Source: an uncultured Prevotellaceae bacterium
GTDB taxonomy: Bacteria; Bacteroidota; Bacteroidia; Bacteroidales; Bacteroidaceae
DNA: 54,727 nucleotides
Direction: 5' to 3'
NCBI GenBank assembly: GCA_947174565.1
Contig: CAMWJL010000004.1
Span: forward strand, 1-54,727
The notes below the pieces were generated by a model. The model was not told where the DNA came from. It did no database searches and saw only the letters and a program-made list of their open reading frames with translations. A program made the translations under genes and the position numbers. Within the stretch, counting starts at the first letter, position 1, and every line of letters starts with the position of its first letter. Positions 13-15,851 of the stretch are shown piece after piece.

Positions 13-1416
13 CTATAAGTCTCGGCCTGGTTTCAGCCCTGCGGCATCGTCGAAGGTGAGGATGGCGTTGCAGAGGGTGGCGGCGAGGTTGGAGCCGCCT
101 TTGCGACCTTCGACAATGATTTTGGGGATGTCCACGAAAGGTTTCACCATGTGTTTCGACTCCTTGACATGCACGAAACCGACGGGTGCGGCGATGATGC
201 CAGCAGGGTGGCTCTTGCCCTTGCGGATGAGGTCGCAGAGTTCCATCAAGGCGGTGGGCGCATTGCCGAAGGCGAAAAGTGCGTCGGGATGCTCCTCCAC
301 AGCGAGACGGATGCCGGCTTGTGTCCTTGTGATGCCCAGCGAGGTTGCCATTTCTGCCACGCGAGGGTCGCTGAGGTAGCATTTGGTCACGATGCCGAGG
401 CGTTGCAACGCTCCCTTGCGGATGCCGCTGGTCACCATTGTCACGTCTGTCACGATGGTCGTCAGCGTGCCGTCCTTCACCTTATTATATAGTGCTGTCA
501 CAGCCCCATCGTCGGTGTGGAGGATGTTCTCCATGTCGAAGTCGGCGGTGGTGTGGATTGCGTGGAGGAGTGCCCACAGGTGGTCGAGTGGATAATCTTG
601 GCGGTGAAGCTCTCTGCGGATGGTGCGGAAGGACTCCATCATGATGAGCTGCCCCTTCTTCTCGTCGCCTTCCACCAACGGGCGGTAGTAGCCTCGGGGG
701 GTGATGAAGGTGTCGTTCCAGTTGTAGGACTGGGAGTTGCCGATGAGGATGACGGTGAACATATCCACATCCTCGGGGTCGAAAGCCCCCAGCGTGGTGA
801 GGGTCACTGCTTGGTCGGGTCGTCCGGCTTGCCGCACAAACCCCACGGGGGTGTTCTCCGACCTTCCCTCCGAGAGAAAGACCTCCTTCAATCTGTGCAG
901 TTGCCAGTAGCGACCGTGCGACTTGGGGTTATAGACAGCCGTCACAAAGTCGCCGATGGCAGCGGCCCTGATGCGGCGTTCGATGACTTCCCAAGGGGTC
1001 ATGAGGTCGGAGAGCGAAATGACGCAGAAGTCGTGACCGATGGGCGCACCGAGCAGGGAGGCGGCTTTTTGGAATGCCGAGATGCCAGCCAACGGTGTCA
1101 CTTCCACGTCGCTGTTGCGCTCGCGCTTCATCTCGTAGATGAGGGGTGTCATCCCGTAGATGCCAGCATCGCCCGAGGAGATGACCACAACGGTTTTGCC
1201 CTCCTCCGCTAATTGGAAAGCTTGCTCGGCACGTTCGCGTTCATGCTTCATGCCCGTGTCGATGCACTCGCACCCTGCCTTCAGATAGGGCGTAATGAAC
1301 TGAAAGTAGTATTTGTAACCGACGACGGCATCGGCCTCTTTGACCGCGTTGATGACGGCTGGCGTGATGTCGTCAGGACCTCCTGGTCCGATGCCTGCAA
1401 CGATAATCTTTTTCAT
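13..1416 (-). CDS. cobJ/cobH: CobJ-CobH fusion: precorrin-3B C17-methyltransferase / precorrin-8X methylmutase
   Basis: A 467-residue two-domain cytoplasmic enzyme of corrin ring synthesis. Residues 1 to about 247 form a tetrapyrrole methylase: the SAM-site glycine loop GIGPGG is at 8-13 and SSGDAGIYGM at 80-89, as in CobJ/CbiH, which methylates C17 during ring contraction. Residues about 255-455 match precorrin-8X methylmutase (CobH/CbiC), which moves a methyl group from C11 to C12; His288 in IHTTADF is the likely catalytic histidine. Each half has the length of the stand-alone enzyme, so this is a true fusion. The ATG lies only 7 nt beyond a TAACTTTG promoter box, so the mRNA should be nearly leaderless. 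It is transcribed leftward and the next gene of its operon is outside the window. Whether it acts in the aerobic or anaerobic branch cannot be told from this protein; the CbiK-type neighbour suggests the anaerobic one. Confidence 0.93.
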   Translation of the reverse strand: MKKIIVAGIGPGGPDDITPAVINAVKEADAVVGYKYYFQFITPYLKAGCECIDTGMKHERERAEQAFQLAEEGKTVVVISSGDAGIYGMTPLIYEMKRERNSDVEVTPLAGISAFQKAASLLGAPIGHDFCVISLSDLMTPWEVIERRIRAAAIGDFVTAVYNPKSHGRYWQLHRLKEVFLSEGRSENTPVGFVRQAGRPDQAVTLTTLGAFDPEDVDMFTVILIGNSQSYNWNDTFITPRGYYRPLVEGDEKKGQLIMMESFRTIRRELHRQDYPLDHLWALLHAIHTTADFDMENILHTDDGAVTALYNKVKDGTLTTIVTDVTMVTSGIRKGALQRLGIVTKCYLSDPRVAEMATSLGITRTQAGIRLAVEEHPDALFAFGNAPTALMELCDLIRKGKSHPAGIIAAPVGFVHVKESKHMVKPFVDIPKIIVEGRKGGSNLAATLCNAILTFDDAAGLKPGRDL

Positions 1417-1608: not shown

Positions 1609-3678
1609 TTATTTCTTGAACTTGACTTTAAGACCGACAGTGAGCATTCTGCCCGGATTGTAGAGGGCGAATTTGCGCGTTGACGAATCAATGCGGTTGT
1701 CTGTCTTGTCGAAGATGTTGTCGATGCCGATGCTTGGCTCGATGAGTGCCCACTTCGTGCAGTCGAACGTGTGGGTGGTGTTGAAGTTCAGCACACCGTA
1801 GCCTGGTGCATTTTCGTGCGTCGCGGTGTAGTAGGTCTTCGACTGGAAGCGTCCGTTCAGGTTGGCGTTGAGCGCATACCGTCCCCATGCGTGGTGGTAG
1901 TTGAGTGCCACGGTGGCAGCGTTGCGGATGCTGCGCTCCAGTGTGCTCCACTTCCCGTCGCTTTGGGTGCGGGCGTAGGCGTAGGCGTAGTTGGCGGAGA
2001 GATTGAAGCCGCGGAAGAGGTTGGCAGAAATGTTCACCTGCATGCCCTTTACGTCCCCCTTGTCGCTGTTGCGGTAGAACGAGTATCTCTCCAGTTTCTC
2101 AGCCTCTTCGGGCTTCATTTCAGGGAACTCCTGCTGCAAGTGGGCGAGCGTGGCTTCATCTACAGGCACGTCTTGGCGCACCACCATGTTGTTGATGCGG
2201 TTGATGTAGCCTGTGACACTGACCACTAACATGTCTGTGTGGTACTCGGCGTTGAGGGCAAAGTAGTTGCTCTTCTCAGGTTTCAAGCCCTGATTGCCGA
2301 AGATGATTTGGGGTTTGCCGCGATTGACGTTGTAGTAGTGGTAATACAGTTCATCCAGTCCTGGCGCACGGAATCCGGCTGAGTAGGTGGCGCGGAAGTT
2401 GAACGCACCAGGTGAAAACATCAGTGTGGCCTTGGGCGTGAGCTGGCTGCCTGCCGTCTGGTGGTCGGTGTAGCGCGCTCCCACCGTGGCGGTCAGATGG
2501 CGCAGCAGCTGGTGCTCGTGCTGACCGTAGAGGGCAAACTGGTGTACGCTCTCATCAATGCTGCCCGAGGTGGCATTAAGTTGGTCGGTGCGCCAATTCG
2601 CTCCCACAATGGTGGTGGAGTTCTTCATCAGCCCGAGGATGCCTTTGAGGTCGCCCTCGTAGGCGTGCTGTTGTTTCGACCGCACGAAGTCACCCACCTT
2701 GTTGGTCTTGGTCTCCACATCGTATTCTTTGCCGTAGCTGAAGCGGTCGGACGTGAAGGCTGCCTGTAACGAGTTCTTCGGTGTGAACTTGTAGATGCCC
2801 CCCGCATTCCAGCGCACTCCCTTGTACCGCATTTCATAGTCAGTACCGCCCTGAATGTCAGTGCGTGAGTTGGGGCGGTCTGTTATCTTATAGGAGTAGT
2901 CGAAACCAGCATTGAACGCCAGTTTGTTGGTGGGTGAGTAGGTGAACTTCTGTCCCACAATGTTGGAGCGGTAGCCTGTGAACAGAGGAGCAATCGACGG
3001 TTCGGTCTCGGTGGTAGAACCTTTCTTGTACTCCAATCCGTTGATGCGGTAGCTGTCAGCGCGGTCGTGAGTGAAGGACGTATAAGAGCCGAATCCGTGG
3101 GTGAAGATGTCGAGTGTCACGGCTTCTGTCAGCTGCCCCTTGCCCGAAACGTGTGTGTCGTTGGTCACGCTGACGAGCTGCTGCGTGGGCTGGTCAGTGA
3201 TGATGTTGATGACACCTGCGATGGCATCGCTGCCGTAGAGCGACGATGCGGCACCGTCAAGCACCTCAATGCGCTTGATGCGCGAGAAGTTGATGCGGTT
3301 GAGGTCCACATTGTTCGAGATGTCGCCCGAGAGCTTTTGTCCGTTCACGAGGATGAGGATGTACTTGTTTCCCAGTCCGTTCATCCGCAGGAACGAACCC
3401 ATGGAGGAGGGTGACATCGACACCTGCGGCATCATGCGAGTGAGGGCAGCGTCTAAGGTGCTGATGCCCTGCTCATACATCTCTTGGGCGGAGAGCACAC
3501 GCACAGGGGTGGCGGTGGCTTTGAGCCGTTGGTGATGTCCCGAGCCTGTCACGACCACGGGGTTCAGGTCGTAGGTCTTGATGGTGGCGGTGGTGTCACG
3601 GCGTTCCATCTTGTGTACCTGAGCGAAAGCGGCACTCCCGCATGAGAGTGCCGCTAAGAGAAACACTTCTTTTCTCAT
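1609..3678 (-). CDS. TonB-dependent outer-membrane receptor, BtuB-like (second copy)
   Basis: A 689-residue outer-membrane receptor predicted to import a corrinoid or related tetrapyrrole using TonB energy. The start at 3678 gives a clean signal peptide (MRKEVFLLAALSCGSAAFAQ); an in-frame ATG 18 nt upstream would add residues in front of it. A plug domain (about residues 35-170) carries the family signatures YILILVNGQ and EVLDGAASSLYGSDAIAG, followed by a beta-barrel ending near GLKVKFKK. It lies 39 nt downstream of the chelatase lipoprotein and should be read from the riboswitch-controlled promoter at about 7160. It is paralogous to the receptor at 4808-6937. The substrate is inferred from context; a heme or other metal-chelate receptor cannot be excluded. 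Confidence 0.88.
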   Translation of the reverse strand: MRKEVFLLAALSCGSAAFAQVHKMERRDTTATIKTYDLNPVVVTGSGHHQRLKATATPVRVLSAQEMYEQGISTLDAALTRMMPQVSMSPSSMGSFLRMNGLGNKYILILVNGQKLSGDISNNVDLNRINFSRIKRIEVLDGAASSLYGSDAIAGVINIITDQPTQQLVSVTNDTHVSGKGQLTEAVTLDIFTHGFGSYTSFTHDRADSYRINGLEYKKGSTTETEPSIAPLFTGYRSNIVGQKFTYSPTNKLAFNAGFDYSYKITDRPNSRTDIQGGTDYEMRYKGVRWNAGGIYKFTPKNSLQAAFTSDRFSYGKEYDVETKTNKVGDFVRSKQQHAYEGDLKGILGLMKNSTTIVGANWRTDQLNATSGSIDESVHQFALYGQHEHQLLRHLTATVGARYTDHQTAGSQLTPKATLMFSPGAFNFRATYSAGFRAPGLDELYYHYYNVNRGKPQIIFGNQGLKPEKSNYFALNAEYHTDMLVVSVTGYINRINNMVVRQDVPVDEATLAHLQQEFPEMKPEEAEKLERYSFYRNSDKGDVKGMQVNISANLFRGFNLSANYAYAYARTQSDGKWSTLERSIRNAATVALNYHHAWGRYALNANLNGRFQSKTYYTATHENAPGYGVLNFNTTHTFDCTKWALIEPSIGIDNIFDKTDNRIDSSTRKFALYNPGRMLTVGLKVKFKK

Positions 3679-3717
3679 TATAATAAAGTCTAACATTGAA
3701 ATGGAAAATGGAAATGT

Positions 3718-4824
3718 TTATTCTTCTGGATACATAGAGTGATAGTAATCAACAACTTCGGCCTCTTGGGTGTGCTGGATGTAGATGCGGCGGATGTTGT
3801 CATACTCAAGCAGACCCTTCACGAGCGCGTCTGCTCCCTCGTCGGTGTAATAGGGGTCTTCCTCAATGGTGTACCCCAGATGCTCGAAGTACTTTTTCCA
3901 GCTGACATCTTCTGCCTCGTCCTCTGTCTGAGTGGCCATATCTGCCTCCCATTCATCGTCATCGCCAGCCATGTCGTTGTGGGCGTGGTCTCCTGCAATC
4001 GACATGAGGGGAGCGCAGAACACTTTGCCTGCGGTGATGTCTGCCTCTACCATGCGGTTGTGTACCTGCACCTTGAAGTTGTCTGCCATATCGACGGTGC
4101 CCACGAAGTAGTTGGGGTTGATGTCTTGAAGGGCAGTTTCGAGCTGTGTGTAGCGCACGTTTGCCTTGTAGGTGTCGTATTCGTCGGGGTTGCCGTGACC
4201 CATGAGGAGCATGGCGCCTTGGTTAGCATAAGCGCGCAGGTTCTCATCCAGTGCCGTAGCCAAAGTGGTAGCGTCATCCTCTGTGTACATGAGCGGCATG
4301 CCCAGTTTCAGTGTCATCTGTGACAGGTATTCGTCGTCGAGGTCTCCGTTGGAGTTGTTGCCAAAGTCCTTCATTGCGTTCACCACTCGGCTGAACTCTT
4401 CACCAGGAATCACCTGCATGGATTGCACGATGATTTCGCTGTACTGCACACGACCGAAAGCTTCCAGCCAGTACTTCGGCTCGTAGAAACTGCGCTTGTC
4501 GGTGTTCTCGCCAGCGGCTGCACGGTTGATGCAGATGGCGGAAGAGAAGGAGAGATATACATCGTAGTCGGGGAACTCGGCTTGGTATTCTTCAACCGTG
4601 TTGTCGAAAGCGTCGTAAGCTTGCTGCCATGTAGAGCCGAATGCCACGAGCAGGATGGCTTTGTCGTGCTTTTTCTGGTTTTTCACTGTGGAGTCAACGG
4701 CGCGCTGGTAGCGTTCCATGTTGGATACAGGGTCTGCTGCGTCGTCGTCATCGCTGCATGCGGTGAAGCTCACCGCTGTCATGAGGGTCGCTGCCATCAT
4801 GAGAAACTTAATTGTCTTCATCAT
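3718..4824 (-). CDS. cbiK: CbiK-type cobaltochelatase, exported lipoprotein
   Basis: A 368-residue homologue of CbiK, which inserts cobalt into sirohydrochlorin. The family motifs are present: AFGSTW at 61-66, MGHGNP with His210, and IAGDHAHNDMAGDDD with His280; these histidines match the metal-site pair of CbiK. Unlike the cytoplasmic enzyme it starts with a lipoprotein signal (SFTAC, lipidated Cys23) followed directly by SDDDD, which resembles the Bacteroides signal for lipoprotein export to the cell surface. An acidic stretch of about 16 residues (roughly 291-307) separates the GDDD motif from SWKK and looks like an insertion relative to CbiK as I know it. The gene overlaps the upstream receptor by 17 nt and lies between two receptors under a cobalamin riboswitch. 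It may be a surface chelatase or have become a tetrapyrrole-binding protein, like the IhtB lipoprotein of Porphyromonas. Confidence 0.9.
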   Translation of the reverse strand: MMKTIKFLMMAATLMTAVSFTACSDDDDAADPVSNMERYQRAVDSTVKNQKKHDKAILLVAFGSTWQQAYDAFDNTVEEYQAEFPDYDVYLSFSSAICINRAAAGENTDKRSFYEPKYWLEAFGRVQYSEIIVQSMQVIPGEEFSRVVNAMKDFGNNSNGDLDDEYLSQMTLKLGMPLMYTEDDATTLATALDENLRAYANQGAMLLMGHGNPDEYDTYKANVRYTQLETALQDINPNYFVGTVDMADNFKVQVHNRMVEADITAGKVFCAPLMSIAGDHAHNDMAGDDDEWEADMATQTEDEAEDVSWKKYFEHLGYTIEEDPYYTDEGADALVKGLLEYDNIRRIYIQHTQEAEVVDYYHSMYPEE

Positions 4825-6937
4825 TGTTACGATTTGATAAATTAGACTTTATTTTGTTGATTAACTTTTTACCTTGACTGAAGCGCACTGACAGTGTGGC
4901 ATAGAAGGTGGTGCCAGGCGTGTTGGTGCCGAGGTGGAGACCATGGGGCGTGCGATCTACATAATTAAAGATGTTGTCGATTCCTGCTTCCACGCGGTAG
5001 TTTAGGTGGCGGCTGTTGCCGAGGGTGTGGGTGGTGGAGATGCGCCAAAGGTTGTATCCCTTGCCGTCGCCATCGACTTGATAGTATCGCTTGCTCGACA
5101 TGCGCCCATAGATGCCGATGCCCAACTGGTAGGTGGGGACGAAGCGGTGTTCCCATGTGGCGAAAAGGCTGCCTTTATGGTGAGCCATGCCGTCGATGAC
5201 AACGCGTATCAAGCGGTCATGGTTGGTGTCATAGACGTGTGCGTCGGTGTCGAGATAGCTGTAGCTGATGCCGCCTGTCCACTCCTTGTGGGAGTAGCGG
5301 AGACTCACATCCACGCCACAGGTGCGAGCGTCCTCCATGTTCTGATAGCGTCGCACTTTGCTGAGCATCTCGCCGTATTGCTGACGGTATATCTCGGGGG
5401 CTTCCGTGCGAGGGATGGTGACCAGCGCAATCATGTTCTCCACCTTGTTGTAGTAGCCTGATACGGTGACGTTCATCCCCTTGTGGTTCCACTCGCCGCT
5501 CATGGAGAAGTAGTTGGAGGTTTGTGCCTTTAAGTCTTTGTTGCCCAAATACATGATGACGGAGTTCATCTCGCGGATATAGCGGTAGTTCATCTCCTTC
5601 AAGGAAGGGGACTTGAAGCCTTGGCTCCATGTGGCACGCAGCCTCACATCGCCCATGCTGACCATCGCTGAGACTTTGGGTGTCAGCCGCCATCCGAATC
5701 CCTCGTTGCGGTTCAGCCTTAGACCGCCTGTCAGGTGCAGCCATCGGAGCATGCCCCATTCGTCCTGCACATACAGGGCTTCGGTGTTGTCGCTCGCTGT
5801 CCTGTCAGCCAAACTGGTAGGGGCTTTCAGATAGTCGTACCGCGCTTCGATGCCTGCACTCAGTCGTTGCTCGAGAGGCAGGGAGAAGACTCCTTTCAGG
5901 TGTGCCATCGTGCGTTCTTGGTTGCTTTGTAGCAACTTCTGCCCAGCAAAGTAGGGGAAGTCGAGAATGAGCTTTCCGTCTGCGTCGAACCCTTCTGCCA
6001 AGGTGGTGGAAGTGAATGAGTGGTAGTAGGCGTGCTTGTTCCAATCAATGTCCAGCGTGATGACATCGCCAGCATGGGTCTTCCATTGTCCGCCCACCGT
6101 CGCCGATGCGTTGCGATATGTGAGGTCGAACGTCTTCACGTCATACTTGGGGTATTTCCCTTTCGGACGATGGATGCCCTTGCCGTAGATAGAGCCGTTG
6201 GCGTAGAACTCACATTGTTTGGACGGGGTGAAGGTCAACTGCTCCGACACCTGCCAGCTGGTGTGCTCGTTCACGGTCTTGTTGCGTGAGTCAGTGATGG
6301 GGATAGTGCTGCTGGGCGTATATTCTGTGCCTGTGTTCTGCCATCCGTCGCTGTGCTGTAACTGGAAGTTCGTGTAGCTCTTCCACTTGCCCCATGCTAA
6401 TGCCACGCCATTGTGTTGGCGGAGGTCGTTGTAGCTGCCATAGCGTGTGGTGTTCTCCGCCATGAGGCCTTCGTTGTGCTTCTTCGTGATGATGTTCACC
6501 ACGCCAGCGATAGCATCGCTTCCGTAGAGTGCCGATGAAGCTCCCTTCACAATCTCAATCTTCTCAATGTTGTGAGGGTCGATGAGCGAGAGGTCGTTCT
6601 CGCCGCCCACATCGCCGTGGATGCGCTTGCCGTCGATGAGGATAAGGATGTAGTTGTTGCCCAGGCCGTTCATCTGCATCTGACTGCCCATGTCGCCCTC
6701 GTTGAAGGCAAACGATGAGGTCAGCCCCGACAGGATGTCAGACAACGAACTGCCAGCGAACTGGCGCAACATTCGGCTGTTGATGACCTCTGTCTGCACG
6801 GGCGCGTCTTTCAGCAGGTGCTGCGTGCCAGTACCTGTCACAACCACTTCTTGCAGAGAGTCGCCCTGCATGGTGTCCTGTGCCAACAATGTCTGGACGA
6901 GGCACATCAGTGCCCATCCGAGAAACCATCTTTTCAT
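4808..6937 (-). CDS. btuB: TonB-dependent outer-membrane receptor, BtuB-like, riboswitch-controlled
   Basis: A 709-residue receptor, first gene behind the cobalamin riboswitch. I chose the start at 6937 because it yields a signal peptide (MKRWFLGWALMCLVQTLLAQ); an ATG 24 nt upstream would add a charged extension. EVVVTGTG near residue 30 may be the TonB box, and the plug includes YILILIDGKR and EIVKGASSALYGSDAIAG. The last barrel strand appears to end at LSVRF, followed by about 20 extra polar residues. That tail is encoded where the gene overlaps the start of the chelatase gene by 17 nt, so the overlap may couple translation. Riboswitch control supports cobalamin or another corrinoid as substrate. 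Confidence 0.9.
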   Translation of the reverse strand: MKRWFLGWALMCLVQTLLAQDTMQGDSLQEVVVTGTGTQHLLKDAPVQTEVINSRMLRQFAGSSLSDILSGLTSSFAFNEGDMGSQMQMNGLGNNYILILIDGKRIHGDVGGENDLSLIDPHNIEKIEIVKGASSALYGSDAIAGVVNIITKKHNEGLMAENTTRYGSYNDLRQHNGVALAWGKWKSYTNFQLQHSDGWQNTGTEYTPSSTIPITDSRNKTVNEHTSWQVSEQLTFTPSKQCEFYANGSIYGKGIHRPKGKYPKYDVKTFDLTYRNASATVGGQWKTHAGDVITLDIDWNKHAYYHSFTSTTLAEGFDADGKLILDFPYFAGQKLLQSNQERTMAHLKGVFSLPLEQRLSAGIEARYDYLKAPTSLADRTASDNTEALYVQDEWGMLRWLHLTGGLRLNRNEGFGWRLTPKVSAMVSMGDVRLRATWSQGFKSPSLKEMNYRYIREMNSVIMYLGNKDLKAQTSNYFSMSGEWNHKGMNVTVSGYYNKVENMIALVTIPRTEAPEIYRQQYGEMLSKVRRYQNMEDARTCGVDVSLRYSHKEWTGGISYSYLDTDAHVYDTNHDRLIRVVIDGMAHHKGSLFATWEHRFVPTYQLGIGIYGRMSSKRYYQVDGDGKGYNLWRISTTHTLGNSRHLNYRVEAGIDNIFNYVDRTPHGLHLGTNTPGTTFYATLSVRFSQGKKLINKIKSNLSNRNNDEDN

Positions 6938-6989
6938 AAGTCTTGTTGTATGGCTACGCATGTTCCTGTGCGCTGATACATATTCTATA

Positions 6990-7150
6990 TGGGCTTTGGC
7001 AGGTCTTCTGGCTCTCCCCCTGTCTGCTCGCCTTCCCGATTCCTCAGTGGCTTTGTGTGAACAGACGTTTATAAAAGGGGATTACAGCTGCAGGTACAGC
7101 TCCAGTTTTTCACTGGATTCCCTTGCATCGAAACGCTCGATTACCAAATT
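6990..7150 (-). promoter_or_regulatory. Cobalamin (AdoCbl) riboswitch
   Basis: Read on the minus strand, the leader has the conserved blocks of the cobalamin riboswitch in order: GGGAATCC near 7122, GCTGTACCTGCAGCTGTAA (7101-7083), GCCACTG (7051-7045), GGGAAGG (7037-7031) and GAGCCAGAAGACCTGCC (about 7014-6998). The block order and spacing fit the family. It lies in the leader between the promoter at about 7160 and the receptor start at 6937, so it should shut down receptor-chelatase-receptor expression when cobalamin is plentiful. No riboswitch was seen in front of either biosynthetic operon. Confidence 0.95.
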
Positions 7151-7156
7151 CTGCTG

Positions 7157-7188
7157 CAAAGGTACACTTTTTTTATGATTTATTCAAC
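7157..7188 (-). promoter_or_regulatory. Promoter of the riboswitch-receptor-chelatase operon
   Basis: On the minus strand TACCTTTG lies at 7164-7157 with GTTG at 7188-7185, 20 bp upstream. The start point would be near 7152, just ahead of the riboswitch. It is divergent from the cbiA promoter, and the two -33 regions fall on nearly the same bases. Confidence 0.7.
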
Positions 7189-7221: not shown

Positions 7222-7875
7222 ATGAAGACGGGATTCCTCATAGCAGCACCTGCAAGTGGCTCGGGCAAGACAACGATTGCCCGTGGGCTGATGGCTTTGT
7301 TCACCCAAAAAGGCTGGGTGGTGCAGCCTTTTAAGTGTGGTCCTGACTACATTGACACCAAGTTCCATGCAGCCATGTGCGGTCGTCCCAGCATCAATCT
7401 CGACACCTTTATGGCAACGGGCGAACATGTCAGGGAACTCTTCGTCCGCTATGGTCAGGATGCCGACGTGTGCATTGTTGAGGGCATGATGGGGCTTTTT
7501 GACGGTTATGACCGCGACCGAGGTTCCTCTGCCGAGATTGCCAGTGTCTTAGGATTGCCAGTGGTGTTGGTGGTTGATGCCAAGCATGCCGCTTACTCCG
7601 TGGCGGCATTGCTGTCGGGCTTCCTCCGTTTTAGGAAGGATGTGCGCATCGCAGGTGTCATCTTCAACAGAGTTGGCTCTAAGCGGCATCGGGCCATGTT
7701 GCAGGAAGTGTGCGATGACTTGCAGGTGGAGTGTCTGGGCTTTCTGCCTGCATGCGTGGACTTGGAGCAAGGCTCACGATATTTGGGTTTAGACTTTTCG
7801 GAGCGGATGGAGAGTGGAAAGTTAGTGTCGTTGTTAGATGAGCATGTGGAATGGCAAAGACTCATGGCGTTATGA
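7222..7875 (+). CDS. cbiA: CbiA N-terminal half: cobyrinate a,c-diamide synthase ATPase domain
   Basis: The 217-residue first half of cobyrinate a,c-diamide synthase, which amidates the a and c side chains of cobyrinate with ATP and glutamine. It holds the dethiobiotin-synthetase-like ATPase domain: P-loop ASGSGKTT at 11-18, PDYID at 41-45 and EGMMGLFDG at 87-95. The frame closes at 7875, just after the point where full-length CbiA (about 450 residues) passes through its interdomain linker. The glutaminase half follows in another frame with a 25-nt overlap. Either the enzyme is naturally made as two subunits or one base has been lost or gained. First gene of the rightward cobalamin operon. 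Confidence 0.9.
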   Translation: MKTGFLIAAPASGSGKTTIARGLMALFTQKGWVVQPFKCGPDYIDTKFHAAMCGRPSINLDTFMATGEHVRELFVRYGQDADVCIVEGMMGLFDGYDRDRGSSAEIASVLGLPVVLVVDAKHAAYSVAALLSGFLRFRKDVRIAGVIFNRVGSKRHRAMLQEVCDDLQVECLGFLPACVDLEQGSRYLGLDFSERMESGKLVSLLDEHVEWQRLMAL

Positions 7876-8420
7876 TAGTGGTGGCAAGAAATAGTGAGTC
7901 GTTCTCGTTTCTGTATCAGGAGATGCTGGACAGGTTCGGGGAGAGTGTCTCTTTCTTTGACCCCGAAAGGGAAGAACCCGATTTGAGCGATTGCGACCTG
8001 CTTTATCTCCCGGGCGGCTATCCCGAGAAGCACTTGGAGGCACTGGTGAAGGCGGAACGGACGCGGCAGCGCATCAAGGATTATGCCGAACGGGGTGGTC
8101 GTATTGTGGCGGAATGTGGTGGCATGATGTATCTGTGCCAAAGCATTGTGACCGACGAGGGAGAATACCCGATGTGTGGCGTTCTGCCCTATCGTATCAC
8201 GGCTCGTCGGGCCGACCGCAAGCTGTCATTGGGCTATCGCCGTTTTGTGTTGGACGGAAGGGAGTATCGGGGGCATGAGTTCCACTACACCCAGTTCTTG
8301 GGCGATACGCCTCAGTCCATTGTGCAAGTCTATAATGCCAAGGGCGAGCCAGTGCCGACTCCTGTGTTTCGGTATAAGAATGTGCTGGCAAGCTATACAC
8401 ATATATATAATATAATGTGA
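7851..8420 (+). CDS. cbiA: CbiA C-terminal half: glutamine amidotransferase domain
   Basis: The 189-residue second half of CbiA. It opens with the conserved start of the amidotransferase part (VMIVVARNSESFSFLY), then LLYLPGGYPE at 50-59 and the nucleophile elbow AECGG with Cys89; His184 in ASYTHIY fits the catalytic histidine. It would supply ammonia from glutamine to the ATPase half. It has its own ATG at 7851, inside the 3' end of the first half, but only a weak purine-rich ribosome site, as is usual in Bacteroidetes. The split falls at a domain boundary and both parts look intact, so a two-subunit enzyme is plausible; a frameshift or assembly error is the alternative. Confidence 0.9.
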   Translation: MAKTHGVMIVVARNSESFSFLYQEMLDRFGESVSFFDPEREEPDLSDCDLLYLPGGYPEKHLEALVKAERTRQRIKDYAERGGRIVAECGGMMYLCQSIVTDEGEYPMCGVLPYRITARRADRKLSLGYRRFVLDGREYRGHEFHYTQFLGDTPQSIVQVYNAKGEPVPTPVFRYKNVLASYTHIYNIM

Positions 8421-10069: not shown

Positions 10070-11545
10070 ATGAAGAGACTTCATTCCATCATGTTGGCTG
10101 GTACGGGCAGCGATGTGGGCAAGAGCGTCCTTGCTGCGGCTCTGTGCCGTATCTTGGTGCAGGACGGTTATCAGCCAGCTCCGTTCAAGGCGCAGAACAT
10201 GGCGTTGAACTCCTATGCCACGCCCGAAGGGCTGGAGATAGGCAGGGCGCAGGCGGTGCAGGCGGAAGCGGCTGGCATTCCTTGCCATACCGACATGAAC
10301 CCCCTTCTGCTGAAACCGCAGAGCGACCACACGAGTCAGGTGGTGCTGAACGGGCGACCCATCGGCAACCGTGATGCCTACGATTACTTCCGCAAGGAGG
10401 GTAGGGAGGAGTTGCGGCGTGAGGTCTGTGCGGCTTTTGACCGCCTTTCCCAACGCTACCACCCCATTGTCATGGAAGGGGCTGGCAGTATCTCCGAGCT
10501 GAACCTTCGTGACAGCGACTTGGTGAACATGCCGATGGCGCGTCATGCCGATGCCGATGTCATCTTGGTGGGTGACATTGACCGTGGCGGTGTCTTTGCC
10601 TCTGTCTATGGCAGCATCGCTTTGCAGACCCCCGAGGACAGGAAGCGCATCAAGGGTATCATCATCAACAAGTTCCGTGGCGACCTGCGGCTGTTTGACG
10701 AGGGGCGGAAGATGTTGGAAGATCTCTGTGGCGTGCCTGTCTTGGGCGTTGTGCCTTACTACAAGGACATCCACATAGAGGAGGAGGACAGCGTGGATTT
10801 GGCGATGAAGTCGAAGACGGCGGAGCAGGGGTGTGTGAACGTGGCGGTGGTGCTTCTGCGCCATCTGTCCAACTTCACCGACTTTAATGTGCTGGAACGA
10901 GACTCGCGCGTACATCTATTCTATACGAACAACACGGATGACCTTCTGAAGAGCGACATCATCATCTTGCCGGGCAGCAAGTCAACATTGAGCGACCTTT
11001 GCGAACTGCGTCGCAATGGGGTGGCACAGGCGATTGTCCGTGCGCATCGGGAAGGAGCGACGGTTATGGGCATCTGTGGCGGCTATCAGATGATGGGCAT
11101 GGAAGTGTGTGACCCCCTGCATATAGAGGGCAACATGGAGCGGCTGCCAGGACTTGGATTGCTGCCTGTCACCACGACGATTACGGCTGAAAAGACCACA
11201 CGGCAAGTCACCTTCAACGGCGGTATGCACGGTTACGAGATACATTGTGGAGAGACGCATCCCTGTGCCGATGCGCCTGCCTGTCCATGGGTCATGCTGG
11301 ATGACGGCACGTCCGATGGTTATCAGGTGTCCAGCCGTTGCATGGGCACTTACATTCACGGCATTCTCGACAATGCCGAGTGCATCGACCGTCTGCTTGA
11401 ACCCTTCGCTGAGAAGCTAAAGGATTCCAATGAATCCTTTGACTATCATGCGTTTAAGGAACAGCAGTACAACCTCCTTGCCGACCATGTTCGCCAGCAT
11501 CTGAACATGGACTTACTCTATAAAATCTTACAGAACCATGCTTGA
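10070..11545 (+). CDS. cbiP: Cobyric acid synthase CbiP/CobQ
   Basis: A 491-residue enzyme, full length for the family, that amidates side chains b, d, e and g of adenosylcobyrinate a,c-diamide using ATP and glutamine. The N-terminal ATPase domain shows the P-loop GTGSDVGKS at 11-19, FKAQNMALNSY at 39-49 and MEGAGSISE at 135-143. The C-terminal amidotransferase domain shows GICGGYQ with Cys336 and GTYIHG with His430. It starts one base after the membrane-protein gene and overlaps cobD by 8 bp. The fused domain order contrasts with the split CbiA upstream. Confidence 0.96.
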   Translation: MKRLHSIMLAGTGSDVGKSVLAAALCRILVQDGYQPAPFKAQNMALNSYATPEGLEIGRAQAVQAEAAGIPCHTDMNPLLLKPQSDHTSQVVLNGRPIGNRDAYDYFRKEGREELRREVCAAFDRLSQRYHPIVMEGAGSISELNLRDSDLVNMPMARHADADVILVGDIDRGGVFASVYGSIALQTPEDRKRIKGIIINKFRGDLRLFDEGRKMLEDLCGVPVLGVVPYYKDIHIEEEDSVDLAMKSKTAEQGCVNVAVVLLRHLSNFTDFNVLERDSRVHLFYTNNTDDLLKSDIIILPGSKSTLSDLCELRRNGVAQAIVRAHREGATVMGICGGYQMMGMEVCDPLHIEGNMERLPGLGLLPVTTTITAEKTTRQVTFNGGMHGYEIHCGETHPCADAPACPWVMLDDGTSDGYQVSSRCMGTYIHGILDNAECIDRLLEPFAEKLKDSNESFDYHAFKEQQYNLLADHVRQHLNMDLLYKILQNHA

Positions 11546-12518
11546 CGGACACGGTGACGACATCCATAGCTATTCGGGCATTCGCATGAATTTCAGTTCC
11601 AACATCTATGCCCATGCCGACCTCTCCGCGTTGGAGGCGCACTTGTGTCGTCATATAGACCTCATCCGCTCCTACCCTGAGCCGTCTGCCACAGCGTTGG
11701 AGGCGATGATAGCCCATGCGCATGGCATTGAGCCAGGCAATGTGTTGGTGACCAGTGGGGCTACCGATGCCATCTATCTGATTGCGCAGATGTTCCGTAA
11801 CCGAAAGACATTCAGGATCTTTCACCCGACATTCAGTGAGTATGCGGACGCTTGCCGTCTGTATGGGTATCAGGAGCGTCCTGATGCTTCTATTGCGTGG
11901 CTCTGCAACCCTAATAACCCGACGGGTGAAGCCTTCCCCCTCTCCTTTATTGAAGACCTTTCCGCCCGGCACGACCTGCTTGTCGTGGATCAGTCCTACG
12001 AGGACTACACCCTTGCCCCCATGCTCGCTCCAGCAGAAGCCATACGCATGGCGAATGTTCTTCAGCTCTACTCGTTGACCAAGCGGTATGGCGTTCCAGG
12101 GCTTCGGCTCGGCTATGTGGTTGGCTCTTCAAGGCTCATCGCAATGCTCCGAGACCATTATCGTCCGTGGGCAGTCAATGCTCTTGCCATGGAGGCTGGC
12201 AAATGGCTCGTCGCCAATCGTCCTCGTCTGATTCCTAACCTTGCCGCCTATCTGCAAGAGACGCAACGCCTCCGCCATCGACTGAATGCTATCGAAGGCA
12301 TCACCGCATTCGATACCCAAACCAACTTCTTCCTCTGCACCATCCATCCTCATACTGCCGCAGCACTCAAGGATGCGCTTGCCCGACATCATAGCATCCT
12401 CATCCGTGATGCCTCTAACTTCCAAGGACTTACTCCCCATCACTTCCGCATTGCCGCGCAGTCGCAAGAGGAGAACGACGCACTGGTGGAAGCAATAGAC
12501 CAATATCTCCATAACTGA
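11538..12518 (+). CDS. cobD: Threonine-phosphate decarboxylase-like PLP enzyme, CobD
   Basis: A 326-residue fold-type I PLP enzyme. Motifs are CNPNNPTG at 123-130, Asp151 (VVDQSYEDY) that holds the PLP ring nitrogen, and the Schiff-base lysine Lys182 in SLTKRYGVPGLRLGY. Its place between cbiP and cbiB identifies it as the CobD that decarboxylates L-threonine O-3-phosphate to (R)-1-amino-2-propanol phosphate, the linker of the nucleotide loop. From sequence alone a histidinol-phosphate aminotransferase paralogue would look alike. It overlaps cbiP by 8 bp, and its TGA shares a base with the cbiB ATG. Confidence 0.9.
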   Translation: MLDGHGDDIHSYSGIRMNFSSNIYAHADLSALEAHLCRHIDLIRSYPEPSATALEAMIAHAHGIEPGNVLVTSGATDAIYLIAQMFRNRKTFRIFHPTFSEYADACRLYGYQERPDASIAWLCNPNNPTGEAFPLSFIEDLSARHDLLVVDQSYEDYTLAPMLAPAEAIRMANVLQLYSLTKRYGVPGLRLGYVVGSSRLIAMLRDHYRPWAVNALAMEAGKWLVANRPRLIPNLAAYLQETQRLRHRLNAIEGITAFDTQTNFFLCTIHPHTAAALKDALARHHSILIRDASNFQGLTPHHFRIAAQSQEENDALVEAIDQYLHN

Positions 12519-13474
12519 TGATACTACAGACTCATATATCGCCCCTCTTTCTTGGTTGGCTGCTCGACCTCCTCTTGGGCGACCCATCGTGGATGCCACA
12601 CCCCGTCGTGGGCTTTGGCAAGATGATTGCCACGGGGGAAAGATGGCTCAATCGTGGAACGCATCGCAAACTGAAAGGCGCATTCCTTGCCCTCTTCCTC
12701 GTTGTGGTTGTCTTCGTCGCTACATGGACATTGCTGCATGTAACCTGTGTGGTGTCTGATACATTCTACCTCTACATTGCCATCGCTTCCCTCATTATCT
12801 TTTGGTGTCTTGCTGGCACAACCCTTATCCGTGAGGTGCGCCAGACCTTCATCGCAGTTGACCGTTCCCTTGAAGAAGGACGCAAGCAGGTGGCGCGCAT
12901 CGTGGGACGAGACACGAGCGAACTCTCTGCCCAAGAGATTCGTACAGCTGCCCTTGAGACACTGGCAGAGAACCTGAGTGATGGCGTGGTAGCCCCGCTC
13001 TTCTGGCTTGCCATCGGGGGCGTGCCGGGCATGCTCGCCTACAAGATGGTCAACACGCTTGACTCAATGATAGGCTATCGTACTGACCGTTACCGTGATT
13101 TTGGCTGTTTCGCCGCTCGTTTGGACGATGTGGCGAACTATATCCCTGCCCGTCTCACGGCGTGCCTGATGGTGTTGGCATCGGGTCGCCTCTCGTTGAT
13201 GAAGTTTGTGGCAAAGCATGGCTCCAAGCACGCCTCTCCCAACAGTGGCTATCCCGAGGCTGCCCTCGCTGGCATTCTCAACTGCCGTTTCGGTGGGTCG
13301 CACACTTACTTCGGTCAGCTCTTCGATAAGCCTTACATCGGTGATAACGACCGACCGCTCACGACTGAGGATATGCGCATCGCCATCCGCATCAACCGCA
13401 TGGCCGAATGCCTTGCCATCCTCCTTGTTGTTCTTGTTTATATCATCATGTCCTTCATCCTCAACGCAATATGA
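12518..13474 (+). CDS. cbiB: Adenosylcobinamide-phosphate synthase CbiB
   Basis: A 318-residue inner-membrane protein that joins aminopropanol phosphate to adenosylcobyric acid. Family signatures are LLGDPSWMPHPVVGFGKMI near the N-terminus and LAENLSDGVVAPLFW followed by NTLDSMIGYR in the middle. Hydrophobic segments lie at about residues 54-76, 80-100, 155-170 and at the C-terminus. It starts in a TGATG overlap with cobD and ends in an ATGA overlap with cobU, so it is tightly coupled in the operon. Confidence 0.95.
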   Translation: MILQTHISPLFLGWLLDLLLGDPSWMPHPVVGFGKMIATGERWLNRGTHRKLKGAFLALFLVVVVFVATWTLLHVTCVVSDTFYLYIAIASLIIFWCLAGTTLIREVRQTFIAVDRSLEEGRKQVARIVGRDTSELSAQEIRTAALETLAENLSDGVVAPLFWLAIGGVPGMLAYKMVNTLDSMIGYRTDRYRDFGCFAARLDDVANYIPARLTACLMVLASGRLSLMKFVAKHGSKHASPNSGYPEAALAGILNCRFGGSHTYFGQLFDKPYIGDNDRPLTTEDMRIAIRINRMAECLAILLVVLVYIIMSFILNAI

Positions 13475-13977
13475 AGAAAATAATCCTTGTCACAGGTGGT
13501 CAGCGTTCAGGAAAAAGCCAATATGCTGAACGTCTTGCCCTCTCTCTCAGTTCTCATCCTGTCTATGTAGCAACGGCTCATGTGTGGGACGACGAGTTCC
13601 GTCAGCGTGTCGTCAAGCATCAGGAACGGCGGGGGGCTGAATGGGATAATATTGAGGAAGAGAAATACCTGAGTCGTCATGACCTCGCAGGGCGTGTGGC
13701 GGTCGTTGACTGCATCACGCTTTGGTGTACGAACTTCTTCTTTGAGTTCCAAGACGTAGATAAAGCCCTCGCCATGCTCAAAGACGAGTTCGACCGCCTT
13801 GTAGCCCAAGACACCACGTTCATCTTTGTGACCAACGAGATAGGTTCTGGTGGTGTGAGCGACAATGCCGTGCAACGCCAGTTCACCGACCTTCAAGGCT
13901 GGATGAACCAGTATGTAGCGACTCGTGCCGACGAAGTGACCCTCATGGTCAGCGGCATCCCCGTAAAGATAAAGTAG
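13471..13977 (+). CDS. cobU: Adenosylcobinamide kinase / guanylyltransferase CobU
   Basis: A 168-residue bifunctional enzyme that phosphorylates adenosylcobinamide and transfers GMP to it. It shows the P-loop GGQRSGKS at 9-16 and His50 in VKHQERR, which matches the guanylylated histidine of CobU. The start at 13471 overlaps cbiB by 4 nt (ATGA); an upstream in-frame ATG at 13408 is inside cbiB and adds an unrelated peptide. The length is slightly under the usual 180 residues. After its stop comes a 37-nt gap with a 14-bp palindrome before cobT. Confidence 0.95.
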   Translation: MKKIILVTGGQRSGKSQYAERLALSLSSHPVYVATAHVWDDEFRQRVVKHQERRGAEWDNIEEEKYLSRHDLAGRVAVVDCITLWCTNFFFEFQDVDKALAMLKDEFDRLVAQDTTFIFVTNEIGSGGVSDNAVQRQFTDLQGWMNQYVATRADEVTLMVSGIPVKIK

Positions 13978-13988
13978 AATCATTTGAG

Positions 13989-14002
13989 GGGCTTGCAAGC
14001 CC
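13989..14002. other. 14-bp perfect palindrome before cobT
   Basis: GGGCTTGCAAGCCC lies in the short cobU-cobT gap. It could form a small intercistronic hairpin or be a protein-binding site. No T-run follows, so it is not a terminator. Confidence 0.5.
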
Positions 14003-14014
14003 TGTAAATCTCCT

Positions 14015-15061
14015 ATGCGAAACTTTCAGATAACCATCCCCGATGAGGCTCTTCGCCCCGTCATTCAAGAAAAGATAGACAATCTCAACAAGCCCAAAGG
14101 CTCGTTGGGGCGTCTTGAGACCCTTGCCATGCAGGTGTGTCTTATCCAGCAGACCCTCACTCCCTCGCTGGCACATCCTTGCCATCTTCTCCTCGGAGGC
14201 GACCATGGCATTGAGCGTGAGGGGGTTAGTGTCTCGCCACGAGAAGTGACTTGGCAGCAGATGATAAACTTCACCAAAGGCGGCGGCGGTGTCAATATGT
14301 TCTGCCGCCAGCATGGCTTCCATCTGCGCATTGTGGATGTGGGCGTGGATTACGACCTCTCCTATGTGCCAGACATTCTCGACCACAAGATTGCTTGGGG
14401 GACACGCAACTTTCTGCATGAGCCAGCCATGAGCCGCGAAGAGTATGAACGTACCTTGCAGGTGGGCATCGACCTCGCCAACGAGTGCCACGACGAGGGT
14501 TGCAAGGTGCTGTGTCTCGGTGAGATGGGCATAGCCAACACCTCCCCCTCTTCCGTTTGGATGAGCCTCTTCTGCCATATTCCGCTCGACGAGTGCATCG
14601 GTGCTGGGGCAGGGCTGAACACCGCTGGCATTAGCCATAAGCGCGACATTCTTCATCAGGCTCTTTGCAACTTCAATCAGCTGATGCCGAATCCAACGGC
14701 AGAAGACGCCATCCGATACTTTGGCGGCTTCGAGATGGTCGCCGCCATCGGTGCCATGCTCCGTGCTGCCGAACTGCAGATGACCATCCTTGTCGATGGC
14801 TTCATCATGACCTCCTGTGCCTTGGCGGCCTGTCAGCTCCATCCCGAAGCCAAGGCATATATGGTCTTCGGCCATAGCGGCGACGAGAGCGGACACCGCC
14901 GCATGCTCAATGCCCTCGGTGCTGAGCCGCTCCTTTCCCTCGGTTTCCGTTTGGGCGAAGGCACGGGTGCGCTCTGCGCCTTTCCTATCCTTGACTCTGC
15001 CGTCCGCATGATGAACGAAATGAATAGCTTCTCCAATGCCAACATCACCAAGTACTTCTAA
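14015..15061 (+). CDS. cobT: Nicotinate-nucleotide:dimethylbenzimidazole phosphoribosyltransferase CobT
   Basis: A 348-residue cytoplasmic enzyme that makes alpha-ribazole phosphate, or another lower-ligand nucleotide, from nicotinate mononucleotide and a base. Motifs are LNKPKGSLGRLE at 24-35, LLGGDHGI at 59-66, GAGAGLNTAGI at 196-206 and FRLGEGTGA with Glu315, matching the catalytic Glu317 of the Salmonella enzyme. The length is typical. No dimethylbenzimidazole synthesis gene is visible nearby, so the base activated may come from outside the cell or be adenine. Its stop lies 4 nt before the cobS ATG. Confidence 0.96.
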   Translation: MRNFQITIPDEALRPVIQEKIDNLNKPKGSLGRLETLAMQVCLIQQTLTPSLAHPCHLLLGGDHGIEREGVSVSPREVTWQQMINFTKGGGGVNMFCRQHGFHLRIVDVGVDYDLSYVPDILDHKIAWGTRNFLHEPAMSREEYERTLQVGIDLANECHDEGCKVLCLGEMGIANTSPSSVWMSLFCHIPLDECIGAGAGLNTAGISHKRDILHQALCNFNQLMPNPTAEDAIRYFGGFEMVAAIGAMLRAAELQMTILVDGFIMTSCALAACQLHPEAKAYMVFGHSGDESGHRRMLNALGAEPLLSLGFRLGEGTGALCAFPILDSAVRMMNEMNSFSNANITKYF

Positions 15062-15065
15062 CCGC

Positions 15066-15851
15066 ATGGCTCAGTCTTTCGGTGCTCCCATCCGTCGATG
15101 CTTCCATTCTCTCTGGGCATCCCTCATCTTCTTCACCCGACTCCCGTTTTGGCGGCTGCACCAGCCCCCCAAGGAAGCATACGCCACGGTGTTGGAACAC
15201 TGGCCACTCACGGGGTGGCTCACAGGTGGCATCATGGCGGCAACCCTCTTCGGAGCGTGCCACATCCTCCCGTTCCCCATTGCCGTCATCCTCGCCATTC
15301 TCGTGCGCCTTTTTGTTACAGGTGCCTTGCACGAAGATGGTCTTGCCGACTTCTTCGACGGCTTCGGTGGAGGCACTGACCGCCAGCGCATCCTCGTCAT
15401 CATGAAGGACTCCCACATCGGCACCTACGGGGTCCTCGCCCTCGTCTTCTATTTCCTGCTTCTCGGAGGCATCCTTTGTTCCTTGCCCCCCATGACAGCC
15501 GTCTTCGCCATACTGGCAGCTGACCCCCTGGCAAAGATGTTTTCGGCACAAATCGTCAACTTCATGCCATACGCCCGTCGTGAAGAAGAGGCAAAAAACA
15601 AGACCGTCTATCGTCCCCTCAGCATGAGGGCGACAGCCAGCCTTGCCGTGCAGGGACTTCTTCCGTCCCTCCCCCTTATTCTGTTCACCGAGGTCACATG
15701 GTGGCTCGCCGTCCTCGCCCCCATCCTTACCGTCACCTTTCTCTTCCTGCTCATCTGGAGAAAACTGCGCGGCTACACAGGCGATTGTTGCGGTGCGGTT
15801 TGCCTCCTTGCCGAACTTTCCTTCTATTTGGCAACGTTGATATTGCGGTAG
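15066..15851 (+). CDS. cobS: Adenosylcobinamide-GDP ribazoletransferase CobS
   Basis: A 261-residue inner-membrane enzyme for the last joining step, transferring the ribazole phosphate to adenosylcobinamide-GDP. Signatures are GALHEDGLADFFDGFGGG from residue 87 and IMKDSHIGTYG at 112-122, with GYTGDCCGA near the end. Several hydrophobic helices follow. I used the ATG at 15066, just after the cobT stop; an upstream ATG at 15036 lies inside cobT. This is the last gene of the operon. The alpha-ribazole phosphatase CobC, often its neighbour, is not here. Confidence 0.95.
   Translation: MAQSFGAPIRRCFHSLWASLIFFTRLPFWRLHQPPKEAYATVLEHWPLTGWLTGGIMAATLFGACHILPFPIAVILAILVRLFVTGALHEDGLADFFDGFGGGTDRQRILVIMKDSHIGTYGVLALVFYFLLLGGILCSLPPMTAVFAILAADPLAKMFSAQIVNFMPYARREEEAKNKTVYRPLSMRATASLAVQGLLPSLPLILFTEVTWWLAVLAPILTVTFLFLLIWRKLRGYTGDCCGAVCLLAELSFYLATLILR

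Follow-up and report, generated by a model that had tools for sequence, protein, structure and literature searches.

A surface-signalled CbiK-family lipoprotein under a cobalamin riboswitch and its possible role in tetrapyrrole salvage by Prevotella-like bacteria

The subject of this analysis is a gene for a CbiK-family chelatase with a lipoprotein signal, encoded in a 54,727-nucleotide stretch of DNA (the window) from an uncultured Prevotellaceae bacterium (GenBank assembly GCA_947174565.1, contig CAMWJL010000004.1). The minus strand carries, in order, a cobalamin riboswitch, a TonB-dependent receptor (TBDR1), the chelatase, a second TonB-dependent receptor (TBDR2) and a CbiH-CbiC fusion whose open reading frame (ORF) terminates at the contig edge (Table 1). 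The riboswitch stops 19 nt before TBDR1 (4808-6961, minus strand), which upholds the placement under cobalamin control proposed in an earlier sequence-only reading of the window. That reading had also described the chelatase as locked by overlap between two receptors. The description was ruled out in this form, as it holds for the upstream receptor only: the chelatase and TBDR1 share 17 nt (4808-4824), whereas the first ATG of TBDR2 (3696) lies 21 nt beyond the chelatase stop and leaves a gap.

The assignment to CbiK, with the histidine motifs kept, was confirmed. The protein scores 150.7 bits against the Pfam family of CbiK, or class II, chelatases (PF06180; gathering cut-off 26.2) and 105.1 bits against the NCBI equivalog SiroCoChCbiK (NF047852), under the curated cut-off of 400. 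Structure comparison confirmed the chelatase fold, with relatives including PDB entries 1qgo, 2xvx/2xvz and 9b86; the superposition on CbiK that had been suggested as a check shows a fold shared with Salmonella CbiK (1qgo) and with FetB of Porphyromonas gingivalis, the latter being the top Foldseek match (29% identity, template modeling score 0.90 by target length). Counted along the alignments, His210 and His280 correspond to His145 and His207 of Salmonella CbiK, and Glu143 to Glu89. These are presumably the catalytic metal-site residues of CbiK. Gln137 occupies a position at which three solved relatives have His. FetB and IhtB of P. gingivalis are taken here to be one protein.

In one scan of named genomes, relatives of the chelatase are encoded by 467 stretches; the analysis covered the best 80 loci. 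The carriers are Prevotella-like bacteria, mostly from the rumen and gut. In at least two cases among these 80, both loci of a pair come from one assembly (L128/L130 and L137/L144), and some of the loci repeat genomes of the window's own genus (e.g., L113, L118 and L163). Glu142, Glu143, His210, His280 and Gln137 are unchanged in 80/80 loci, and the window protein looks like a working chelatase rather than a retired binder; the latter possibility was ruled out by the invariant metal site. Two roles had been offered for the protein: an enzyme acting before import, or a former chelatase that now serves for capture. The Glu/His/His set does not vary, which makes the enzyme the better fit and the capture protein the poorer one.

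The N-terminus of the chelatase reads MMKTIKFLMMAATLMTAVSFTA followed by CSDDDD, in agreement with the Bacteroidota lipoprotein export signal pattern of a lipobox Cys, a polar residue and an acidic run. Export was judged from the lipobox and this motif, not from a signal-peptide predictor. SDDDD is the consensus hypothesised for surface lipoproteins of Bacteroides fragilis, and in Capnocytophaga it directed a reporter to the cell surface, though less efficiently than that organism's own signal (PMC5080379). All 80 related chelatases have a lipobox. Acidic residues at +2 to +6 after the Cys were counted by script: 77 of the 80 have at least two, and the remaining three, for which the script had picked an upstream Cys, read ACSDDDD or ACSSDDDD by eye. 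At least three were counted in 70/80, the other ten comprising seven with two and three with none. In the same loci, none of 22 BtuF-like lipoproteins reaches two; among 69 other lipoprotein-like ORFs, 12 reach two and 6 reach three. For at least three acidic residues, the contrast with the chelatase has a Fisher value of 5e-15 for the BtuF-like group and 5e-24 for the other ORFs, both indicative only as the sequences are related. The lipoprotein alignment (A1) drew on 27 of 30 loci, leaving out L004 for ambiguous bases and L006 and L031 as near copies. The likeness to the B. fragilis signal, already remarked in the sequence-only reading, is thus confirmed and its acidic run recurs in the 80 relatives. 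The pattern suggests that the chelatase bears a surface-export signal and is probably exposed at the cell surface.

Table 1. Positions of the chelatase, its motifs and neighbouring features in the window
Feature	Position	Strand	Basis or detail
CbiK-fold surface-type lipoprotein (main subject)	3718..4824	-	368 aa
Signal peptide, residues 1-22, ends FTA	4759..4824	-	read from sequence
Lipobox Cys23 codon	4756-4758	-	
SDDDD, residues 24-28, putative lipoprotein export signal	4741..4755	-	B. fragilis consensus of PMC5080379
Glu143 codon	4396..4398	-	aligned to Salmonella CbiK Glu89
His210 codon, MGHG	4195..4197	-	aligned to Salmonella CbiK His145
His280 codon, GDHA	3985..3987	-	aligned to Salmonella CbiK His207
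Cobalamin riboswitch aptamer	6981..7163	-	Rfam RF00174, 81.2 bits, E 1.7e-18
TBDR1, TonB-dependent receptor directly upstream of chelatase	4808..6961	-	Pfam plug and barrel
TBDR2, second TonB-dependent receptor, downstream of chelatase	1609..3696	-	Pfam
CbiH-CbiC fusion, corrin-ring biosynthesis	13..1416	-	TIGR01466 306 bits, Pfam CbiC 221 bits
cbiA as two overlapping ORFs, divergent neighbour	7222-7875, 7851-8420	+	Pfam CbiA, GATase_3
cbiP, cobD, cbiB, cobU, cobT, cobS, late cobamide steps	10070..15851	+	translations read; homologues beside operon in relatives

The arrangement around the chelatase recurs in the related loci. In 79/79 loci that extend far enough (the sequence of L168 starts with the chelatase), a TBDR1 homologue lies directly upstream on the same strand; the two genes overlap by alignment edges in 63 of these, and the largest distance is 146 nt. 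The receptor alignment (A3) comprised the window's receptor and 32 of 68 usable receptors. A riboswitch match just before the TBDR1 homologue was found in 69/80 loci with a model (R1) built from the sequences alone of seven of nine Rfam hits, and Rfam itself recovers the cobalamin riboswitch in 7/7 loci tested. Five of the 11 loci without a match at this position lacked room for one, four have a match before a further receptor gene, and the other two are L150, with little sequence, and L168, with zero upstream sequence. Downstream of the chelatase, the next reference gene in 79 loci encodes a TBDR2-like receptor in 58, a BtuF-like protein in eight and CbiHC in five; the other eight have no reference gene within 600 nt. 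Corrin-ring genes fall inside the 9-kb flanks of 51/80 loci, and any cbi or cob gene in those of 69/80. In the window's own genome, BtuC/BtuF-like and ATP-binding cassette (ABC) ATPase genes are on contigs other than that of the chelatase. The pairing with a TonB receptor, the B12 control and the link to corrinoid metabolism, all read beforehand from a single locus, are borne out across these relatives.

The chelatase gene travels with the corrin-ring pathway. It is present in 36/45 genomes of the same genus, where CbiH occurs in 34/36 carriers versus 1/9 non-carriers (Fisher 1.8e-6, not corrected for descent). Beyond the genus, CbiH was found in 34/35 further carriers, six of which (L120, L126, L162, L167, L170 and L175) have it though the chelatase locus shows no cbi or cob gene in the available sequence.

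The pathway that the chelatase accompanies appears to be headless, that is, kept but not self-started. The window's own genome (97.96% complete) has CbiH/C, CbiE/T, CbiG/F, CbiJ/D, CbiA and CbiP, partly on contig C27 (CbiE/T, CbiG-F and CbiJ-D; translations read). CbiL was not found in this genome, which leaves the corrin-ring pathway incomplete. A search of the same genome gave no HemC and no CobA over the cut-off (HemA, HemL, HemB and HemD were not searched). In lacking these initial steps the genome resembles a tetrapyrrole precursor salvager in the sense of Shelton et al., but it departs from that class in its incomplete corrin-ring pathway. Its only two CbiK-family matches, the window protein and a Sec-type paralogue on contig C74, both begin with export signals, and no CbiK without an export signal was found in it. 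The possibility that CbiL is hidden in the gap between contigs C4 and C27 was ruled out, as CbiHC adjoins CbiET in relatives (L039, L042, L043, L046 and L052). The fourth TP_methylase of the genome (C14) reads by eye as RsmI.

A survey of 80 genomes (the 45 genus genomes and those of 35 of the 80 loci) used cut-offs of E 0.001 for HemC, the model cut-off for CobA and E 1e-20 for CbiL. CbiH was found in 69 genomes, HemC in 6, CobA in 5 and CbiL in 9; over its own model cut-off, CbiL was found in 0/80. The 69 genomes with CbiH include five with HemC, four with CobA and nine with CbiL, and 55 have none of the three. All three are likewise missing from 11 of the 12 CbiH-positive genus genomes that are at least 90% complete and at most 5% contaminated. 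In the named control Bacteroides ihuae, CbiK, CbiH and CbiL were matched and HemC was not.

As a separate observation, CbiL was not found in 60/69 genomes that keep CbiH, and their pathway apparently begins past the C20 methylation. Given this widespread lack of CbiL, the ring that is imported may carry the C20 methyl group already, or an unrecognised enzyme may perform the C20 step.

With a surface signal, an intact metal site, a receptor, a B12 switch and a pathway lacking its precursor, the locus is best read as a precursor-salvage device. The chelatase would be a surface CbiK-family lipoprotein that metallates a scavenged tetrapyrrole and works with TBDR1 to feed the headless corrin pathway, a proposal that we hold tentatively and to which we give slightly less than an even chance. 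Low B12 would turn the operon on through the riboswitch. The chelatase would be exported to the outer leaflet of the outer membrane, capture an external tetrapyrrole, insert a metal, most likely cobalt, and hand the metallated product to TBDR1, after which an ABC importer would move the product inward to the corrin-ring pathway. We infer that the metal is cobalt and is inserted rather than removed, and that the tetrapyrrole is sirohydrochlorin or, where CbiL is missing, a C20-methylated relative; the hand-over to TBDR1 and the identity of the serving ABC importer are of the same standing. A bolder claim would place the first committed step of B12 biosynthesis outside the cell in many Bacteroidales, with a surface enzyme loading cobalt into a scavenged tetrapyrrole for a TonB receptor. 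This is possible but, on balance, doubtful.

Several observations weigh against the precursor-salvage reading. Three genomes carry the chelatase without CbiH (G025, G040 and G051), and one that is 74% complete (G003) has CbiH without a chelatase gene. A tree of 25 of the 45 genus genomes yields only three independent contrasts on well-supported branches; these are concordant (2.9 on average) with a sign test p of 0.25, and some of the co-occurrence of CbiH and the chelatase could be due to the loss of both with a single operon. HemC is present in the five CbiH carriers mentioned above, and sirohydrochlorin alone would be insufficient in most genomes because CbiL is missing. The ligand of TBDR1 is not readable from its sequence or fold (model predicted local distance difference test, pLDDT, 67.8); the closest solved sequence is CirA, with other catecholate receptors near and Escherichia coli BtuB lower down. 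For the nearest solved relative of the chelatase, FetB/IhtB, the substrates described are heme or porphyrin (PMC10913741, PMC13402209), and an hmuS mutant shows lowered ihtB expression (PMC13227078).

These last points lead to a rival in which the protein would be a porphyrin chelatase at the surface, of the FetB/IhtB type, removing heme iron or swapping the metal, its place in a B12 operon reflecting shared tetrapyrrole control. The Foldseek result favors this rival, as do the possible removal of heme iron by IhtB (PMC10913741), the insertion of manganese into protoporphyrin by FetB (according to a paper cited by PMC13402209) and the lowered ihtB of the hmuS mutant. However, the cobalamin riboswitch and corrin operon are kept across loci, the presence of the chelatase follows the corrin pathway, and Gln137 is invariant where FetB has His; we consider this explanation unlikely. 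BtuG, too, is a surface lipoprotein that goes with a TonB receptor and is controlled by a B12 riboswitch (PMC10404256), which raises the further alternative of a surface capture partner that has lost catalysis and binds cobamides or cobinamide for TBDR1. This is rather improbable given the invariant Glu/His/His, and 8/9 genus genomes without the chelatase are also without CbiH, although a pure cobamide scavenger would presumably be most wanted there. A lipoprotein chelatase that faces the periplasm and acts after the receptor, as the periplasmic CbiK of Desulfovibrio might suggest, is a shade less probable again, for the Cys is followed by an acidic run in the 80 relatives but in none of the 22 BtuF-like lipoproteins from these loci.

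The Sec-exported CbiK paralogue of the window's own genome (G000, C74) has lost both His and lies beside an ABC ATPase. Across 34 distinct further paralogues of the genus, this one included, the N-termini all appear signal-like by eye, with an internal Met as the likelier start in a few; both metal-site His are lost in 25, one is lost in two, and both are kept in seven. The paralogue often directly follows the ABC ATPase and does not seem specific to the corrin pathway, because genomes that lack the surface chelatase or CbiH also have it (e.g., G017, G029 and G042). Judging from these residues, conversion of a chelatase into a binding protein is more plausible for the Sec-exported paralogue. 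In L038, a His-less Sec-exported paralogue directly follows a FecE/BtuD-like ABC ATPase (10617-11525 and 11542-12615, both minus strand). The same two genes are found together elsewhere in the genus, including where corrin genes are lacking, and the paralogue is a possible chelatase-fold binding protein. A third Sec-exported CbiK clade, in which both His are kept (YVGHGN), occurs in L067, L069, L071 and L093, and short partial receptor matches lie nearby in L093, L102 and L103. A Calycin-like lipoprotein with SDDDN after the Cys is encoded in L037 (10204-11088, plus strand), upstream of another TonB receptor with haem/B12-type scores (11834-13849, plus strand); the contig also has cbiET, cbiGF and cbiJD.

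Two further features lie in or beside the operon. The halves of the split cbiA overlap by 25 nt, and the same frame shift is seen in 6/34 loci with both halves (L113, L114, L118, L119, L122 and L154), the other 28 having one frame; the split represents either gene fission or frameshifting. Between TBDR2 and cbiHC, the window contains three direct repeats spaced by 23 nt, which form inverted repeats as well (1509-1585), a possible terminator or attenuator of the operon. A promoter and terminator scan gave results near chance level.

If the bolder claim is true, many Bacteroidales, possibly hundreds of species, run a B12 pathway that begins extracellularly. The chelatase family, whose active site is conserved and whose receptor partner is defined, is a candidate for the point at which Prevotella-like bacteria take in the precursor. 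Surveys that count CbiK as a cobaltochelatase wherever it is located (e.g., the pathway table of PMC6593275) may call precursor scavengers B12 producers. Porphyromonas species are reported to hold the B12 pathway from precorrin-2 on, and P. gingivalis to be without the steps to precorrin-2 (PMC4700951, PMC6461909). That P. gingivalis has corrin-ring genes but no source of the starting tetrapyrrole has long been a puzzle. On the bolder claim, FetB/IhtB may be related to the system described here, which would answer what feeds the headless pathway of P. gingivalis.

The fold and metal site of the window protein have counterparts in other compartments. Salmonella CbiK is cytosolic, and the CbiK of Desulfovibrio vulgaris is not known to have a surface-type lipoprotein anchor or a receptor partner. 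The former is an enzyme of the anaerobic B12 route with the fold and Glu/His/His in common with the window protein (PDB 1qgo); the latter is exported and has the same fold and metal-site residues (PDB 2xvx/2xvz), but is periplasmic by its PDB title, unlike the surface-signalled window protein. BtuG and BtuB of Bacteroides thetaiotaomicron match the locus in their genes, with a surface lipoprotein and a TonB receptor under a B12 riboswitch; in contrast to the chelatase fold found here, BtuG2 is a beta-propeller (PMC10404256). HmuS, a CobN-like heme de-chelatase of Bacteroidota, likewise belongs to a chelatase family and is encoded in an operon for tetrapyrrole uptake (PMC12583661), but its fold is that of a class I chelatase, and the CobN family has zero matches in the window's own genome.

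The closest system is FetB/IhtB (PDB 9b86), which shares the CbiK fold, the lipoprotein nature and the adjacent TonB receptor. IhtB has the TonB receptor IhtA and the ABC importer IhtCDE as partners, is proposed to remove iron from heme, and is reported not to be regulated by PgFur (PMC10913741). The window protein is about 30% identical to FetB/IhtB and has Gln137 instead of the FetB His. FetB/IhtB is described for heme or porphyrin, with no mention of B12 control in the available parts of those papers, whereas the window gene is controlled by a riboswitch, lies in a corrin operon and encodes SDDDD. No description of a surface CbiK lipoprotein in a corrin operon was found in the literature searched, which consisted largely of listings. 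The expectation of a new twist on corrinoid salvage therefore stands in part: a CbiK-like lipoprotein of this general kind is already published as IhtB/FetB, and the novelty here is the tie of a surface-signalled chelatase to a headless corrin pathway.
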